Of a stretch of DNA of 29,763 nt, positions 1,005-26,441 are shown piece after piece. Both the position numbers and the translations under genes were made by a program. The DNA is from a virus. The stretch is from positions 1-29,763 of IMG/VR virus record IMGVR_UViG_3300030108_000689; one strand, given 5' to 3'. Each line of letters opens with the position of its first letter. Position 1 is the stretch's first letter. The notes under the pieces are model-generated. The model had not been told where the DNA came from and searched no databases. It saw only the letters and a program-made list of their open reading frames with translations.

Positions 1005-3785
1005 ATGAGTGTACAGTTAATCGTCTACCCACAGTCAAACCCTAATGGTATTTATACATACACACAGGTAGCTAATCAGACACAGTATGTAGGTACATTT
1101 AATTTTTACTATCTACTGTTTGCTACAAATACTACTACTACTAGTAGCTCACCACCTATAGATGTCATCAGTGCTGGTGGTGCTAGTACACCACTAATAG
1201 GTGTATGGAAAACATGGTCCACATCTGGTGGTACATATCAATCTACAAACGCTCCAGGGTATGCACTATTTGCTAATTCAGTAACTCTGAAATCTAGCGC
1301 GTCTGGTAATAGTAGTACAGGTCTGTATCAGTTGATAGATGGTCTGACAGTAGGACAGGATTATGAAATCACATACAAAACAATAGCGGGTACTGGTACA
1401 GGTGGTGATATATATATTGGTAATCAATATGGTAGTCAAATCAATGTAGGTAATACAGGATTCAACACGTGTGGTAGTAGTCTTTTTGTAGACACTAACA
1501 TAGTATCTAATACAGTCTATAGTGGACACGTATTTACAGCTACAGATACTACAGAGGCACTGATATTTGAATACATCAATGATAATGGTACAAACGCTGT
1601 CATAGATTTTATCAGTATCAAAGAGGTACAGTCTACAGCTAACTCTGTATATTTAGACGTACATGATGGACAGGTCATACTAGACCTATATGAGGACACG
1701 TCTATACCACTGACACTGAACGTAGATAATTTTAAAGACGCTGCAGAGAGACCGACATCATACTCTAAATCATTTAGATTACCAGGTACTAAACGAAACA
1801 ATCAAATATTCGGTAGTCTATTTGACGTAACTATATCTACATCTGACAGTATATACAGTTTCAATCCATACAGAAAAACTAGTATACGTCTCAAAGAGGA
1901 TGGATACACGATATTTGATGGTCTACTAAAACTGATAGACATCACTGATAAAAATGGAGAGATATCATACAATGTCAATCTATACTCAAATACTACATCA
2001 CTAAAGGAAATACTAGAACAGAGAAAATTAGGTGAGTTAGATCTAGCTGAATTAGAGCATGATTACACACATACCAACATCATAAATAGTTTTACAGGTG
2101 CACTATCACTATCATCAGCTCTAGTAACAGGTAGTTTTGCTGGTACAGCTGGAGCTACTACAACAGACGTACTCAAATACCCACTGTGTGATTGGTCCGG
2201 TAATTTTGAATTGCTAAACGACCAGATATTTATTGGACCTATGGAACGTGGATTCCAACCCTGGATAAAATGTAGGTATCTAATAGATAAAATATTTAGC
2301 GACGCTGGTCTAAATTTTGAGTCTAATTTTTTTGATACTACAGATTTTAAAAAATTGTATCTTGACTGGAATACAGGTGGTGGTATACATGGTGGTAATT
2401 TTCAGGTGAGTCAGGCAAATGATGAGGATACAGGTGTATCAGCTAATGATAATTTTACTACTACATTTACAGGATATACACCACTGAAATTTACAGGTAC
2501 TAACTCACAGACGTACAGGGCAGAATATTACGCTGTAGATGATAGTACATTTACAGCTACTAGAAATGGACAGGTAGTAGACATACAGTACAATATCACT
2601 ATCAAAAATACAACGGCAGGGTCTGAGAAAATTAGATTTAGACTCAGACGTAGTGGTAGTGTGGCAGGTAATATACCAGGTACATATTCACAGCAAACTA
2701 TATCAGGAAATAGTACACAAACATTCAGTGGTAATGTACAGGTTACACTAGACAGTGGTGATACTATACAGGCACAGATAGTGTCAGAAACTAACAGTGC
2801 AGATTGTAAACCTTTGACAGGTGATAATACACAAGACTACATCAGGTTTACAGTACAGGCAGAGACGATGGGTCCGACAGATTTTAGTATGTCTAAACGT
2901 GCTGATATGAGTCAGTGGGATTTTATATCTGGAATCATAAAAATGTTTAATCTAGTAGTACTACAATCACCACCAGGTACAGGTGATTATAGGATAGAGC
3001 CGTATGTAGACATATTCCAACCGTACACATCTACAAATGATGTGCAGATCTTAGACTGGACAGATAGAGTAGACGCGCAAGAGTTTAAACTATCACCGAT
3101 AAACACACTAAAAAAACGTCATACATTTACATATAAAAAAGACACGAAAGACTATGTACATAATACGTACTCAGACATGTTACAGGGATACGTCTTTGGT
3201 AGTTTTGAGAGAGAGGAATTACAAAACGATTTTGTTACTGGTGAGACTAAAATAGAGCTACCGTTTGCACCTACAATAGACAAATATTTATTCGGTAGTT
3301 CGTTTGCGTGTCCGGCTATATTTTCAAAAAAAGGAGATGATGAGTATGAACACTATGATAATCTACCACGTATACTGTATGACAATGGTGTATATACTGA
3401 CCAGTACAATACGTTTGGGTTTAGGTCATTGATACAAAATGGTAGTGCGGCGTTTACTAATCAGACTACATATTTACGATTTTCACACTACATAGACCCT
3501 ATAGGTAGTATGGGTACACAGAATTATAATTTTGGTAATTGTGATTTTATAGGTCCAGGTCCACATCCAATAGAAACACTGTATAGTGAGTTTTGGAGTA
3601 CATACATAGACGAACTCTACCACAATGATACAAGAGTACTAAATCTAAAAATTAACCTCTATGCGAGTGATATTAGTACATTTAGATTTTTTGACATCAT
3701 ACGTATAAAAAATAGAGAATACAGAGTAAACAAAATAGACTACAAACCAGGTGATATTTCATCTATAGAATTAATCGCATTATAA
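1005..3785 (+). CDS. Large tail-tip/hub protein with N-terminal carbohydrate-binding-like domain
   Basis: A 926-residue structural protein. Residues roughly 1-210 are Gly/Ser/Thr-rich beta structure (GLYQLIDGLTVGQDYEITYK and following) resembling a jelly-roll carbohydrate-binding module. From about residue 220 a different region begins (DGQVILDLYEDTSIPLTLNV, then SYSKSFRLPGTKRNN), which I associate with large tail/baseplate proteins of Bacteroidota phages; it continues with hub-like beta-rich sequence to the C-terminus. The gene starts just after the preceding stop and its own stop overlaps the next ATG by one base (TAATG). It may act as the tail hub with host-surface binding at its N-terminus. 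The tail assignment is fairly sure; the sugar-binding role is inferred. Confidence 0.7.
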   Translation: MSVQLIVYPQSNPNGIYTYTQVANQTQYVGTFNFYYLLFATNTTTTSSSPPIDVISAGGASTPLIGVWKTWSTSGGTYQSTNAPGYALFANSVTLKSSASGNSSTGLYQLIDGLTVGQDYEITYKTIAGTGTGGDIYIGNQYGSQINVGNTGFNTCGSSLFVDTNIVSNTVYSGHVFTATDTTEALIFEYINDNGTNAVIDFISIKEVQSTANSVYLDVHDGQVILDLYEDTSIPLTLNVDNFKDAAERPTSYSKSFRLPGTKRNNQIFGSLFDVTISTSDSIYSFNPYRKTSIRLKEDGYTIFDGLLKLIDITDKNGEISYNVNLYSNTTSLKEILEQRKLGELDLAELEHDYTHTNIINSFTGALSLSSALVTGSFAGTAGATTTDVLKYPLCDWSGNFELLNDQIFIGPMERGFQPWIKCRYLIDKIFSDAGLNFESNFFDTTDFKKLYLDWNTGGGIHGGNFQVSQANDEDTGVSANDNFTTTFTGYTPLKFTGTNSQTYRAEYYAVDDSTFTATRNGQVVDIQYNITIKNTTAGSEKIRFRLRRSGSVAGNIPGTYSQQTISGNSTQTFSGNVQVTLDSGDTIQAQIVSETNSADCKPLTGDNTQDYIRFTVQAETMGPTDFSMSKRADMSQWDFISGIIKMFNLVVLQSPPGTGDYRIEPYVDIFQPYTSTNDVQILDWTDRVDAQEFKLSPINTLKKRHTFTYKKDTKDYVHNTYSDMLQGYVFGSFEREELQNDFVTGETKIELPFAPTIDKYLFGSSFACPAIFSKKGDDEYEHYDNLPRILYDNGVYTDQYNTFGFRSLIQNGSAAFTNQTTYLRFSHYIDPIGSMGTQNYNFGNCDFIGPGPHPIETLYSEFWSTYIDELYHNDTRVLNLKINLYASDISTFRFFDIIRIKNREYRVNKIDYKPGDISSIELIAL

Positions 3786-19138: not shown

Positions 19139-19508
19139 AGATTATAAACACATAGACCTACTACTACTGTGTAATGATATACTTTTTAAAACACTAGTAG
19201 AACTAGGACAAACTAAATCAGATGACTGGCTACAGGTCATGTCTAATAGTCTAGCGGTAGACCTAACAGAGGACTTTCCTAATATGCATGATTCTGATAT
19301 CGTAGCGGCGTTTAGACAGGGTGTACGTACAACAGAAAAGTTTGTCATAAATGTACAGACCTACTATTCGTGGATAAAAACACATCAACAGCTCATTTGG
19401 TCTGAAAGTACAAAAGAACCAGAAAAACGTGATAGACGTCTAAAATATAGGTCTAGAGAGGGTACTGGACTCAATCTAATAAATAAACACACAAAAAAAA
19501 TACAATGA
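19128..19508 (+). CDS. Conserved-looking hypothetical protein
   Basis: A 126-residue protein with a helical N-terminal half and a characteristic ...DIVAAFRQGVRTTEKFVI... and VQTYYSWIKTHQQLIW (residues about 85-100) pattern that I associate with a family recurring in Bacteroidota phage replication regions. Basic C-terminus. Overlaps neighbours by 11 and 4 bases. Position next to replication genes suggests a DNA-related role; not established. Confidence 0.6.
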   Translation: MKIKDYKHIDLLLLCNDILFKTLVELGQTKSDDWLQVMSNSLAVDLTEDFPNMHDSDIVAAFRQGVRTTEKFVINVQTYYSWIKTHQQLIWSESTKEPEKRDRRLKYRSREGTGLNLINKHTKKIQ

Positions 19509-20107
19509 AAAATAAAAACTGGATCGGTAATAAAAAGAGTATATTTTCTACATTAGGAGCTTCATCACATAGTGAGGGAGAAAGACAAAAACATGATTAT
19601 TATGCTACTGATCCAATAGCTATAGACCTATTATTTAAAGAGGAAATATTCAGTTTAAATATATGGGAACCTGCATGTGGAGAGGGGCATCTATCAAAGA
19701 GGATGTTAGATTTAGGGTCCTATACAGGAATGTGTGTATATTCATCAGACCTGATAGATAGAGGGTTTGGTGATGTAAAAGATTTTTTGAGTATAGATAA
19801 TGTAGAATGGAATGGTGATATCATCACAAATCCACCTTATAAATATGCACAGGATTTTATAGAAAAATCTATACAGATAATACCTGAGGGTAATAAAATA
19901 GCAATGTTTTTAAAGATACAATTTTTAGAGGGGAAAAAGAGGAAACATTTATTTAAAAAATATCCACCAAAAACTATATATATCAGTAGTAGTAGAATAG
20001 AATGTGGAATGAATGGTATTTTTAAAGGATCATCTGCAGTAGGATATGCATGGTATATATGGGAAAAAGGATACCAGGGAGATACAATGATAAAATGGAT
20101 TAACTAA
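19505..20107 (+). CDS. DNA adenine N6-methyltransferase
   Basis: A 200-residue protein. The SAM-binding motif I is EPACGEG (residues 55-61), preceded by a DYYATDP lead-in (31-37) typical of phage adenine methylases, and the catalytic motif IV is NPPY (109-112). These define N6-adenine methyltransferases of the D12/phage type. It would modify phage or host DNA, likely to protect against restriction. No target-recognition domain of large size, so a short site is likely. Overlaps the previous gene by four bases. Confidence 0.82.
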   Translation: MKNKNWIGNKKSIFSTLGASSHSEGERQKHDYYATDPIAIDLLFKEEIFSLNIWEPACGEGHLSKRMLDLGSYTGMCVYSSDLIDRGFGDVKDFLSIDNVEWNGDIITNPPYKYAQDFIEKSIQIIPEGNKIAMFLKIQFLEGKKRKHLFKKYPPKTIYISSSRIECGMNGIFKGSSAVGYAWYIWEKGYQGDTMIKWIN

Positions 20108-23226: not shown

Positions 23227-23243
23227 ATCTATTATATAGTATG
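23227..23243 (+). promoter_or_regulatory. Repeated AT-rich promoter-like element, copy 3
   Basis: ATCTATTATATAGTATG; identical to the copy at 9782 except for the first base, and again ending in the start codon of its gene (23241). It begins two bases after the stop of the early block, so it likely drives the methyltransferase-terminase block. Confidence 0.55.
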
Positions 23244-24521
23244 TACACAAAGACAGTCAGTATCAATGAGTTAAAATTAAACAAAGATAATCCTAGGGTT
23301 ATCAAAGATGAGAAATTTAAAAAACTAGTAAAATCAATCAAAGATTTTCCAGAGATGTTAGACATCAGACCAGTAGTAGTAGATGAGGATATGATCATAC
23401 TAGGTGGTAATATGAGGTATAGAGCGTGTGTAGAGGCTGGTCTGACTGAGATACCAATACATATAGCTAGTGGATTGACACAGGAACAGAAAGAGGAATT
23501 CATAGTAAAGGACAATGTGGGGTTTGGTGATTGGGAATGGGATATACTAGCAAATGAGTGGGATAATGTAAAACTAGGTGAGTGGGGTCTAGACGTATGG
23601 GTACCAGAGTTAGAGGTAGAGAAACCCGATGGTGTAGTACTGACAGATAAATTTCTAGTACCACCTTTTACTATACTAGACACTAGACAGGGATACTGGC
23701 AGGATAGAAAAAAATTATGGAAATCTAAAATTAACGATAATGGAGAGACTAGAGAGAACGCACTATGGACAGCTGTAGAGATGAAATATGGTACATGGAA
23801 AGGGAAACTAAAAGCGGCACCAGAGGTATCTATACTAGATCCTGTATTAGCTGAGATAGCGTGTAAATGGTTCTGTGTAGAAAAGGGTCGGACCTTTGAT
23901 TGTTTTGCAGGTGATACAGTATTCGGATATGTCAGCGGAGATTTAGGACATGATTTTACTGGTATAGAATTGAGAAAAGAACAGGCGGCTATAAACAATG
24001 AAAGAGTCAGAGATATGTCAGCTAGGTATATATGTGATGATGGTCAGAATGTATCTAAACATATAAAGAAAAATAGTATGGATATGTTATTTAGTTGTCC
24101 ACCATACTATGATTTAGAGGTATATAGTGATATGGATAATGACGCAAGTAATCAGGAATCGTATGATGATTTTATATCTATACTAGACAAAGCGTTTACA
24201 GACAGTATAGAGTGTCTAAAAGATGATAGATTTGCTGTGATAGTGTGTGGTGATGTCAGAGACAAAAAAGGAAAATATTACAGGTTTCCTGATCACATCA
24301 AAGATATATTTGAGAGAGCGGGTATGTCTCTATACAATGAGATGATATTAGTAGAGATGATTGGTACACTAGCTATGAGAGCCGCACGTACTATGAAAAA
24401 TAGAAAGGTATCAAAGTGTCATCAGAATGTACTAGTATTCTACAAAGGGGATATATCTAACATACGAAAAAACTACAAAGATTTAACTACAGAACTAACA
24501 GACATATTAGATGAAAGCTGA
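23241..24521 (+). CDS. ParB-domain DNA methyltransferase fusion
   Basis: A 426-residue two-domain protein. Residues 1-110 are a ParB/sulfiredoxin-like domain, with VSINELKLNKDNPR at the start and GGNMRYRA (55-62) as the G-x-R-R-like loop. The C-terminal domain (about 210-415) is a DNA methyltransferase with motif I DCFAGDTVFGY (220-230) and motif IV CPPYYDL (286-292, from an S-C-P-P-Y, N4/N6 class). Such fusions are common in phages and modify DNA, likely for anti-restriction. First gene of a block, next to a SpeD-like enzyme. Target site unknown. Confidence 0.82.
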   Translation: MYTKTVSINELKLNKDNPRVIKDEKFKKLVKSIKDFPEMLDIRPVVVDEDMIILGGNMRYRACVEAGLTEIPIHIASGLTQEQKEEFIVKDNVGFGDWEWDILANEWDNVKLGEWGLDVWVPELEVEKPDGVVLTDKFLVPPFTILDTRQGYWQDRKKLWKSKINDNGETRENALWTAVEMKYGTWKGKLKAAPEVSILDPVLAEIACKWFCVEKGRTFDCFAGDTVFGYVSGDLGHDFTGIELRKEQAAINNERVRDMSARYICDDGQNVSKHIKKNSMDMLFSCPPYYDLEVYSDMDNDASNQESYDDFISILDKAFTDSIECLKDDRFAVIVCGDVRDKKGKYYRFPDHIKDIFERAGMSLYNEMILVEMIGTLAMRAARTMKNRKVSKCHQNVLVFYKGDISNIRKNYKDLTTELTDILDES

Positions 24522-24801
24522 GATATATAATCACAGAGTCTGGATATCAGAGACAGACCCTAAAATGATAAAAAAATACTTTGATAATCTATTGTATATA
24601 TGTGATTTTGATGTACTAGATTTTATAGACTACAGATTTGTACCTATGGGATACACAGCCGTGTGGTTATTAGGTGAGTCTCATTTTGCTATACATACGT
24701 TTCCAGAACACCAGAAAACATATATAGAGATGTCTAGTTGTAATATAGAGAAACACAATAAATTTATAGATTTAGTAAATACAGACTATGGACAAAAGTA
24801 G
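24511..24801 (+). CDS. speD: SpeD-like pyruvoyl-dependent decarboxylase (AdoMet decarboxylase fold)
   Basis: A 96-residue protein. Residues 47-66 match S-adenosylmethionine decarboxylase: GESHFAIHTFPE has the Glu56-Ser57 self-cleavage site (Ser57 becomes the pyruvoyl group). His62 and Cys77 lie at the same spacing (+5 and +20) as the processing His and catalytic Cys of the bacterial enzyme. Thr49 stands where that enzyme has a Ser. It is shorter than the usual 115-130 residues, lacking the C-terminal extension. The product could be decarboxylated SAM for polyamine synthesis; some SpeD paralogues instead act on ornithine or arginine, so the substrate is open. It overlaps the methyltransferase gene by 11 bases and terS by 14. 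Confidence 0.75.
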   Translation: MKAEIYNHRVWISETDPKMIKKYFDNLLYICDFDVLDFIDYRFVPMGYTAVWLLGESHFAIHTFPEHQKTYIEMSSCNIEKHNKFIDLVNTDYGQK

Positions 24802-25141
24802 GCACATAAAAAAGGAGTCTATGTTAGAGGCTCTAGAACAGACACTAGGTGTAGTAACTACAGCGTGTAAATCTACAGGTATACCAAGATCTACATTTTA
24901 CAAATGGATTAGAGAGGATGAAAAGTTTAAACGTAGTGTACAGGATATAGAAAATATAGCTCTAGATTTTGCAGAGAGTCAGCTACACACACAGATGAAA
25001 AATGGAAATACATCAGCTACTATATTTTATCTAAAAACTAAAGGTAAAAAACGTGGATATATTGAGAGGTCTGAGTTAGATTTGACTAGTGGTGAGGACC
25101 CTATCAAAATCAACATCAATATAGATGGAGTTGAATATTAA
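24788..25141 (+). CDS. terS: Terminase small subunit
   Basis: A 117-residue protein with an N-terminal helix-turn-helix (residues about 12-45; LEQTLGVVTTACKSTGIPRS, then TFYKWIRED), the DNA-binding part of small terminases, and a helical oligomerisation region. The C-terminus (DPIKININIDGVEY) is a short tail for the large subunit. An AAAGGAG lies just upstream of an in-frame ATG at 24821, an alternative start giving 106 residues. It overlaps the SpeD-like gene by 14 bases and terL by 17. It recognises phage DNA for packaging. Confidence 0.8.
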   Translation: MDKSRHIKKESMLEALEQTLGVVTTACKSTGIPRSTFYKWIREDEKFKRSVQDIENIALDFAESQLHTQMKNGNTSATIFYLKTKGKKRGYIERSELDLTSGEDPIKININIDGVEY

Positions 25142-26441
25142 TCCAGATTTTACAGAGACACAAAAAAGAGCTATAAAATATCTGTTTGATAGGTCTACAA
25201 ATGACATACTGTTTGGGGGTGCTGCTGGTGGTGGTAAATCATTCATAGGTTGTGCGTGGTTGATCTTACTGTGTATCAAATACCCAGGTACTAGATATCT
25301 GATGGGTAGGTCTAAACTGGATAGTTTAAAAAAGACTACATTGAATACATTTTTTGAGATATGTCAGACATGGGGTATCATATCAGGAAAACACTATACA
25401 TTCAACGCTGGTAGTAATATCATCACATTTTACAATCAATCAGAGATACTACTGAAAGATTTATTTATGTACCCTAGTGATAGAAATTTTGATAGTCTAG
25501 GATCGTTAGAGATATCTGGAGCTTTCATAGATGAGGCTAATCAGATAACTGAGAAAGCTAAAAATATAGTCAATAGTCGTATACGATACAAACTAGATAA
25601 ATACAATCTGATACCTAAACTACTACTGACATGTAATCCATCTAAAAACTGGACATACACACAGTACTACAGACCGGCTAAAGATGGTACGATAGAGAAA
25701 CATAAAAAGTTTATACAATCACTAGTAGACGATAATCCATTTATATCTAGACACTACAGAGGTCAGTTAGACAAACTAGATGAGATGAGTAAACAGAGAC
25801 TACTATATGGAAACTGGGAGTATGACGCTAGTAAAGATAATCTCATAGAGTATGATAGTATCATCAATCTATTTACACAGACAGGTATACCAGGTGAGAA
25901 ATACATCACGTGTGATATAGCACGATATGGGTCCGATAAAACAGTTATTATGTACTGGGTAGGTAAACATATCAAAAATATATATTCGTACAACAAAACG
26001 TCTATTACACAGGTCGTAGAGGAAATAAAGACTATACAGCAACGTGAGGGTGTCAAACTGACAAACATAATATGTGATGAGGATGGTGTCGGTGGGGGTG
26101 CGGTAGACATACTTAGATGTAGGGGGTTTCAAAATAACAGTAGACCTATTAACAAAGAAAATTATCAGAATCTAAAAACACAGTGTTACTACAAACTAGC
26201 TGATGAGATAAACAGAGCTCAGATAGGTATAGACTGTAGTGATATCAATATCAAAAATTATATCATAGAGGAACTAGAACAGGTGAGGTCTAAAGATATG
26301 GACAAAGATAATAAACTACAGATAGTACCTAAGGATGTCATAAAAGATATCATTAGTCGTTCACCAGATTACGCAGATTGTATCATGATGAGGATGTATT
26401 ATGAGATAGACAGAAACTATGGTAAATATTTTGTACAGTAA
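25125..26441 (+). CDS. terL: Terminase large subunit
   Basis: A 438-residue packaging motor. The ATPase domain has the Walker A GGAAGGGKS (31-39) and Walker B ISGAFIDEA (130-138, with Asp136/Glu137). The C-terminal RNase H-like nuclease has YITCDIARYG (about 260-270), the CDEDGVGGG stretch (about 317) and SPDYADCIMM (about 412-421), which supply the metal-binding acidic residues. It cuts and translocates DNA into the prohead. It follows terS with a 17-base overlap and ends 15 bases before the promoter-like element of the tail block. Confidence 0.93.
   Translation: MELNINPDFTETQKRAIKYLFDRSTNDILFGGAAGGGKSFIGCAWLILLCIKYPGTRYLMGRSKLDSLKKTTLNTFFEICQTWGIISGKHYTFNAGSNIITFYNQSEILLKDLFMYPSDRNFDSLGSLEISGAFIDEANQITEKAKNIVNSRIRYKLDKYNLIPKLLLTCNPSKNWTYTQYYRPAKDGTIEKHKKFIQSLVDDNPFISRHYRGQLDKLDEMSKQRLLYGNWEYDASKDNLIEYDSIINLFTQTGIPGEKYITCDIARYGSDKTVIMYWVGKHIKNIYSYNKTSITQVVEEIKTIQQREGVKLTNIICDEDGVGGGAVDILRCRGFQNNSRPINKENYQNLKTQCYYKLADEINRAQIGIDCSDINIKNYIIEELEQVRSKDMDKDNKLQIVPKDVIKDIISRSPDYADCIMMRMYYEIDRNYGKYFVQ

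Follow-up and report, generated by a model that had tools for sequence, protein, structure and literature searches.

The DNA analyzed here, referred to below as the window, is the 29,763-nt stretch of the IMG/VR virus record IMGVR_UViG_3300030108_000689. Our subject is a pair of overlapping genes on its plus strand: a short speD-like gene, predicted to encode a decarboxylase of S-adenosylmethionine (SAM, or AdoMet), and the gene directly upstream, whose product joins a ParB N-terminal domain to an amino-methyltransferase fold (hereafter ParB-methyltransferase) and is predicted to use decarboxylated SAM (dcAdoMet). The features of the two genes are as follows.

24511-24801, plus strand: speD-like gene with an ATG start, predicted class 1b SAM decarboxylase proenzyme of 96 aa (PF02675, PHROG 27309, AlphaFold2 model)
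24655-24657, plus strand: codon of Thr49, at the T. maritima Ser55 position (alignment with SpeD relatives)
24679-24681, plus strand: codon of Ser57, predicted self-cleavage site (Glu56-Ser57) and pyruvoyl precursor, aligned with T. maritima Ser63
24694-24696, plus strand: codon of His62, equivalent to T. maritima His68
24739-24741, plus strand: codon of Cys77, equivalent to T. maritima Cys83
23241-24521, plus strand: gene of the ParB-methyltransferase, 426 aa, predicted dcAdoMet user (PF02195, PF01555, PHROG 498)
23250-23471, plus strand: ParB N-terminal domain, residues 4-77 (PF02195)
23904-23927, plus strand: altered SAM-binding motif I, FAGDTVFG, residues 222-229 (alignment; beta1-alpha loop of the model)
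23913-23915, plus strand: codon of Asp225, Asp in the SpeD-linked clade and Gly in SpeD-less relatives
23922-23924, plus strand: codon of Phe228, Phe, Ile or Met in the SpeD-linked clade and Arg in SpeD-less relatives
24096-24107, plus strand: motif IV CPPY, residues 286-289, predicted pocket for the amino group of the target base (aligned with SPPY of 2zie)

By sequence and model, the product of 24511-24801 is a genuine class 1b AdoMet decarboxylase (AdoMetDC) homologue, for which self-processing and SAM decarboxylation are predicted; taken alone, it is a further member of an already known family. It matches PF02675 (AdoMet_dc; E 4.2e-13, 50 bits vs the Pfam cut-off of 25) and PHROG 27309 'S-adenosylmethionine decarboxylase' (E 3.9e-35, residues 1-92 against a 96-position profile), and phmmer matches it to the solved SpeDs 2iii and 1tlu. 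The cut-off of TIGR03330 (SAM_DCase_Bsu equivalog) is not reached (40.8 bits vs 75.65). An initial annotation had noticed three key residues at the spacing of bacterial AdoMet decarboxylase, and this observation holds: Ser57, His62 and Cys77 lie at the same spacing (+5, +15) as Ser63, His68 and Cys83 of T. maritima, whose catalytic roles have been described (PMC10407285). All three are invariant among the linked SpeDs (100/100; here and below, residue counts for linked SpeDs refer to 100 non-redundant linked pairs). The structure prediction that it had proposed as a check likewise bears out the SpeD fold, with an AlphaFold2 model of pLDDT 92.2 whose top Foldseek matches are the SpeD structures 2iii, 1tlu, 1vr7 and 1tmi (TMq 0.70-0.78). 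The phage protein thus has the fold and the Ser/His/Cys triad in common with bacterial class 1b SpeD/SpeH enzymes (T. maritima 1tlu, Aquifex 2iii), but it is shorter, with 96 aa compared to chains of 117-135 residues in 1tlu and 2iii. Two details that had appeared special turned out to be ordinary. The 'minimal' size of 96 residues is a usual length in the phage SpeD group, in which relatives mostly have 87-106 aa. Thr49 does stand where T. maritima has Ser55, but it does not distinguish this protein, since Thr occupies the position in 96 of the 100 linked SpeDs (Ser in 4) and also in Aquifex SpeD 2iii; being the family rule, it was dropped as a sign of altered processing.

The nearest cultured relative of the window SpeD is gp67 of Croceibacter phage P2559S (49% identity), which complemented an E. 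coli speD mutant for spermidine production and is therefore a bona fide AdoMetDC (PMC9992855). In P2559S, gp67 overlaps a FAGDTVFG ParB-methyltransferase (gp66), the same layout as in the window, whereas the downstream gene gp68 is annotated as RNase E in the place where the window has terS. To our knowledge, gp66 has never been studied. Pseudomonas phage ZRG1 has a SpeD of a different lineage that likewise overlaps a ParB-methyltransferase of this kind; P2559S and ZRG1, the two carriers of the pair, both have complete genomes and named hosts.

The gene pairing is widespread. Both motif I patterns were scanned as DNA over IMG/VR, and the counts are samples among the matches listed; redundancy was removed at 95% identity, at least 400 nts of downstream sequence were required, and a SpeD was counted when it lay within 2.5 kb on the same strand. 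Picked by motif alone, 51 of 54 FAGD.VFG methyltransferases have an adjacent SpeD, against 0 of 88 with FAGG.VRG (Fisher p ~2e-35, a value that ignores kinship between the sequences); IMG/VR contigs are fragments, and the lack of a SpeD within 2.5 kb is not equal to a SpeD-less phage. The SpeD frame opens ahead of the methyltransferase stop codon in 95 of the 100 pairs. In the window, where the initial annotation had noticed the overlap, it is 11 nts long, the methyltransferase gene ending at 24521.

Beside SpeD, motif I reads FAG-D-[TSA]-V-F-G, whereas SpeD-less phages have FAG-G-S-V-R-G with variants. A set of 205 non-redundant methyltransferases comprises 105 members of the SpeD-type clade, all with Asp at position 225, and 100 others, all with Gly there; position 228 is Phe in 103, Ile in one and Met in one member of that clade but Arg in 100/100 of the others. 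These two positions, along with Phe/Tyr239, are the top discriminating sites, and 225 and 228 split the two classes completely. SpeD-less relatives from GenBank agree with the FAGG-type pattern: the ParB-methyltransferases of Listeria B054, Enterococcus phiFL3A, Fusobacterium Funu2 and HCTV-2 are members of this family (33-36% identity along most of the protein, with the same CPPY), motif I is FAGG.VRG in B054 and phiFL3A with variants in Funu2 and HCTV-2, and no SpeD was found in the stretches examined of all four.

The partner protein itself matches PF02195 (E 2e-7), PF01555 (N6_N4_Mtase; E 1e-9, 38.8 bits vs a cut-off of 26.7) and PHROG 498 (E 6e-116); PF01564 (spermidine synthase) is not among its Pfam matches. 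An HMM alignment of the partner family with the amino-methyltransferase 2zie places FAGDSVF against FAGTGTT and CPPY against SPPY, and CPPY is invariant in both methyltransferase sets aligned. In the structural model, the motif I loop lies between strand 217-220 and helix 227-234. A structure search with this model is led by the tRNA guanine-N2 methyltransferases Trm11, TrmN and Trm14 (Z 17-19); spermidine synthase is not among the structural matches listed, which excludes nothing. The 2zie-like CPPY and a fold closest to tRNA guanine-N2 methyltransferases only suggest an exocyclic amine as the target.

The two switched residues lie at positions that help to set donor choice in spermidine synthase. 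The counterpart of Rossmann methyltransferase motif I in spermidine synthases is a glycine-rich loop with an Asp that forms a hydrogen bond to the dcAdoMet amine (PMC6514230) and leaves a pocket too small for the SAM carboxyl (PMC1282579). In the Datura enzyme, D103I abolished aminopropyl transfer and brought weak methyl transfer, which was improved by adding Q79T and V106T; the latter lies three residues past the Asp, and its Thr was modelled as binding the SAM carboxyl (PMC3725402). Sequence and model support matching Asp225 (+0) and Phe228 (+3) of the phage loop with Asp103 and Val106 of spermidine synthase/putrescine N-methyltransferase. In that pair of enzymes, the motif I Asp (+0) and the hydrophobic residue (+3) go with dcAdoMet and both are lost with SAM, and the phage clade would fit this pattern; the acceptor, however, is a polyamine there and would be DNA in the phage case.

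On a methyltransferase tree built with the motif columns left out, the motif I switch is exactly one change; the tree is unrooted, and the direction Gly to Asp and Arg to Phe is assumed. Because of this single change, the loci were not counted as independent support, and only the clade-level fact and the turnover of SpeD were used. In the SpeD tree, a well-supported split divides the linked SpeDs. Their lineage changes six times on the methyltransferase tree by parsimony, at least three of these on starred branches, with gains and losses indistinguishable. The methyltransferase clade thus kept its FAGD motif while SpeD lineages were exchanged in the slot, which suggests that the activity itself is needed.

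Read together, the directly observed SpeD family and fold, gene pairing and motif switch lead us to propose a two-gene DNA-modification cassette, with a probability of roughly 0.56, in which SpeD would supply dcAdoMet and the overlapping ParB-'methyltransferase' would aminopropylate phage DNA or act on it with dcAdoMet in some other way. SpeD would cleave itself at Glu56-Ser57, forming the pyruvoyl group at Ser57, and would decarboxylate SAM to dcAdoMet. The ParB-methyltransferase would then bind dcAdoMet, with Asp225 holding the free propylamine end and blocking the SAM carboxylate, and with Phe228 at a place where an Arg would be expected to hold this carboxylate. DNA contact would fall to the ParB domain, and CPPY would hold the exocyclic amine of a base in the phage DNA, which would receive the aminopropyl group. 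The aminopropylated genome would probably be shielded from restriction, or the packaged DNA neutralized. That dcAdoMet is the cosubstrate of the ParB-methyltransferase is the likelier part of this proposal, and we consider it probable; for aminopropyl transfer to DNA by this enzyme, the chances seem even or slightly better. We infer the transferred group more remotely than the donor switch, and DNA as the acceptor and the biological role are likewise deduced. The role of SpeD as maker of the neighboring methyltransferase's own cosubstrate, absent from the proposals of the initial annotation, is favored by the comparative data.

A precedent for this logic is the CmoA/CmoX pair of Synechococcus phage S-B43 (PMC12783734). 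There too, the phage encodes an enzyme that makes a SAM analogue and, next to it, a homologue of DNA methyltransferases adapted to that analogue, but the analogue is carboxy-SAM, the group a carboxymethyl, and the enzymes differ at both steps. Instead of the features of CmoX (C5-cytosine methyltransferase family, SPPC motif, Arg350), the partner described here is an amino-methyltransferase with CPPY. In the literature searched, no paper joins SAM decarboxylase, ParB and a phage methyltransferase, and aminopropyl modification of DNA is not reported.

Several points weigh against a dcAdoMet-fed cassette. The correlation between motif and SpeD over the loci is one evolutionary event in one clade of the sequence tree, and the equivalence with spermidine synthase residues rests on the motif I register rather than on superposition. 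The sulfonium geometry for aminopropyl transfer differs from that for methyl transfer. An hhalign comparison of the partner with the spermidine synthase SpeE gave no significant alignment, and profile alignment was accordingly dropped as proof of equivalence. The clades differ at further residues as well (e.g. 230, 239 and 251), and these could be neutral markers. Moreover, four FAGD methyltransferases lack an adjacent SpeD and are followed by terminase genes (L138, L307, L317 and L327), and the same short SpeD clade also occurs in phages without the ParB-methyltransferase. The four unaccompanied enzymes may draw on host dcAdoMet or on a SpeD elsewhere in the genome.

Among the other explanations, the one that survives best, which we nevertheless consider unlikely, is that speD is an auxiliary polyamine gene: SpeD would raise dcAdoMet for a host spermidine synthase, the spermidine would aid translation or DNA condensation, and the adjacency to the methyltransferase would reflect operon history. 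It gains from the P2559S SpeD, which restores spermidine in the E. coli speD mutant, that is, when SpeE is given (PMC9992855), from the many marine phages that have speD without the ParB-methyltransferase, and from tandem SpeD homologues in some related phages and speE in Microcystis phage MaAM05. However, it predicts neither the link to the motif I switch (51/54 vs 0/88 among the matches listed) nor the recurrent exchange of the SpeD that fills the slot. Host content argues in the same direction. The relatives of the window phage point to Bacteroidota as the host group, and canonical spermidine synthase is uncommon in the Flavobacteriaceae sampled, where PF01564 passes the cut-off in 45 of 149 genomes and strongly in 9 of 149 (genome completeness not stated); judged from these sequences, a phage SpeD in these hosts may often lack a spermidine synthase that it could supply. 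In Spirosoma spitsbergense (L062), no PF01564 match passes the cut-off, and the sole SpeD found is the methyltransferase-linked one. No speE was seen adjoining the window speD. At eight loci, a bacterial SpeD from this short clade has a GGGDG spermidine synthase directly upstream; in the phages the altered methyltransferase occupies this place beside SpeD.

We regard as improbable that SpeD serves counter-defense by draining SAM, against host restriction or signalling, while the methyltransferase stays active at low SAM by using dcAdoMet as methyl donor. Such a scheme explains the motif switch next to SpeD as well, and phage SAM lyases that disrupt SAM-dependent defense have been noted (PMC12783734). 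However, a decarboxylase kept beside one enzyme resembles cosubstrate supply more than global depletion. We know of no case in which dcAdoMet is a physiological methyl donor. The choice of this particular Asp is also left unexplained, since the same Asp goes with aminopropyl transfer in spermidine synthase (PMC3725402). No more credible is a neutral origin, in which the methyltransferase uses SAM normally, FAGD.VFG marks the clade neutrally and SpeD is carried along in the clade's cassette. The single origin of the motif and the several further clade-specific residues are in its favor, but both fixed changes lie in the loop in contact with the donor's amino/carboxyl end, only hydrophobic residues (F/I/M) are seen at position 228, and the slot retains a SpeD even through a change of lineage.

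The changed substrate raised in the initial annotation, a neofunctionalized pyruvoyl ornithine or arginine decarboxylase (SpeDC/SpeDA), is very improbable: such phage homologues exist (PMC9992855, PMC10407285), but the nearest tested relative is an AdoMetDC (PMC9992855), the window SpeD has both core prolines (Pro45, kept in 90 of the 100 linked SpeDs, and Pro65, kept in 98), a conserved Pro marking AdoMetDC vs arginine decarboxylase (which Pro is given in a figure only; PMC10407285), and its core ESHFAIHTFPE is, judged by eye, unlike the S-N-I-T-G-H-F core of SpeDC-looking tandem homologues, the diagnostic Gln, Thr, Phe and Tyr positions of SpeDC being given in a figure only.

Those tandem homologues occur on four phage contigs with two overlapping SpeD-like genes (L015:4374-5098, L018:990-1672, L026:4920-5646 and L128:5622-6282), a short SpeD and a protein of ~120 aa with the core IETSNITGHFVDKNG..YIDIFSCK.Y that looks like a SpeDC-type ornithine decarboxylase; by sequence, the two could make putrescine and dcAdoMet together. 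In Microcystis phage MaAM05 (L465:1369-3141), speE comes after two SpeD-like genes, and this cluster may be a full spermidine module.

Downstream of speD in the window lie two neighbors, of which terS is outside the proposed system.

24788-25141, plus strand: terS, terminase small subunit (PHROG 309, PHROG 4044)
25125-26441, plus strand: terL, terminase large subunit (PF03237, PHROG 2)

The speD gene does overlap the 5' end of terS by 14 nts, as had been noticed, but the idea that its expression is tied to packaging is weak. Among IMG/VR loci found via SpeD, the methyltransferase is directly upstream in nearly all, and terS/terL are similar in some only; as these differ, are missing nearby or lie elsewhere in relatives while the methyltransferase stays, a coupling of SpeD to packaging was dropped.

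Besides these loci, several variants of the gene arrangement were observed. In the L003-L009 group (e.g. L003:1963-2868), FAGD methyltransferases of ~300 aa without a ParB domain are still paired with SpeD. At L233, the FAGD methyltransferase (1172-2095, minus strand) and SpeD are separated by a 284-aa protein that belongs to no Pfam family and could act on the new amine. Two SpeD-less ParB-methyltransferases, in Pseudanabaena phage Pam4 (L221:961-3450) and Erythrobacter phage ZS04 (L222:1042-3480), have a pyridoxal-phosphate (PLP)-dependent domain (PF00291) inserted between motifs I and IV, and that of Mycobacterium phage Vincenzo (L219:1-2275) is overlapped by a PLP-dependent-enzyme gene (PF00291) annotated 'carboxylate deaminase'; perhaps these represent another SAM- or amino-acid-based DNA modification. 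A PLP enzyme as general partner of SpeD-less methyltransferases was rejected, as the survey found just two cases among the 100 aligned, a set from which insert-bearing fusions may have dropped out. The window itself has a second methyltransferase-like ORF (19505-20107; motif NPPYKYAQDF, no Pfam match at 0.01), possibly an extra DNA adenine methyltransferase.

Phage speD is usually read as polyamine supply. If its dcAdoMet instead feeds a DNA-modifying enzyme, aminopropylation would be an added group-transfer chemistry on DNA, and this would be a second case of a phage SAM-analogue synthase paired with a re-tuned methyltransferase. It would also account for speD in phages whose hosts may be without spermidine synthase, and the two-residue switch at Asp225 and Phe228 would predict donor choice from sequence alone. 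We see an even chance that the cassette is the first DNA aminopropyltransferase system, which would place 3-aminopropyl groups on exocyclic base amines and give the phage a positively charged hypermodified genome.
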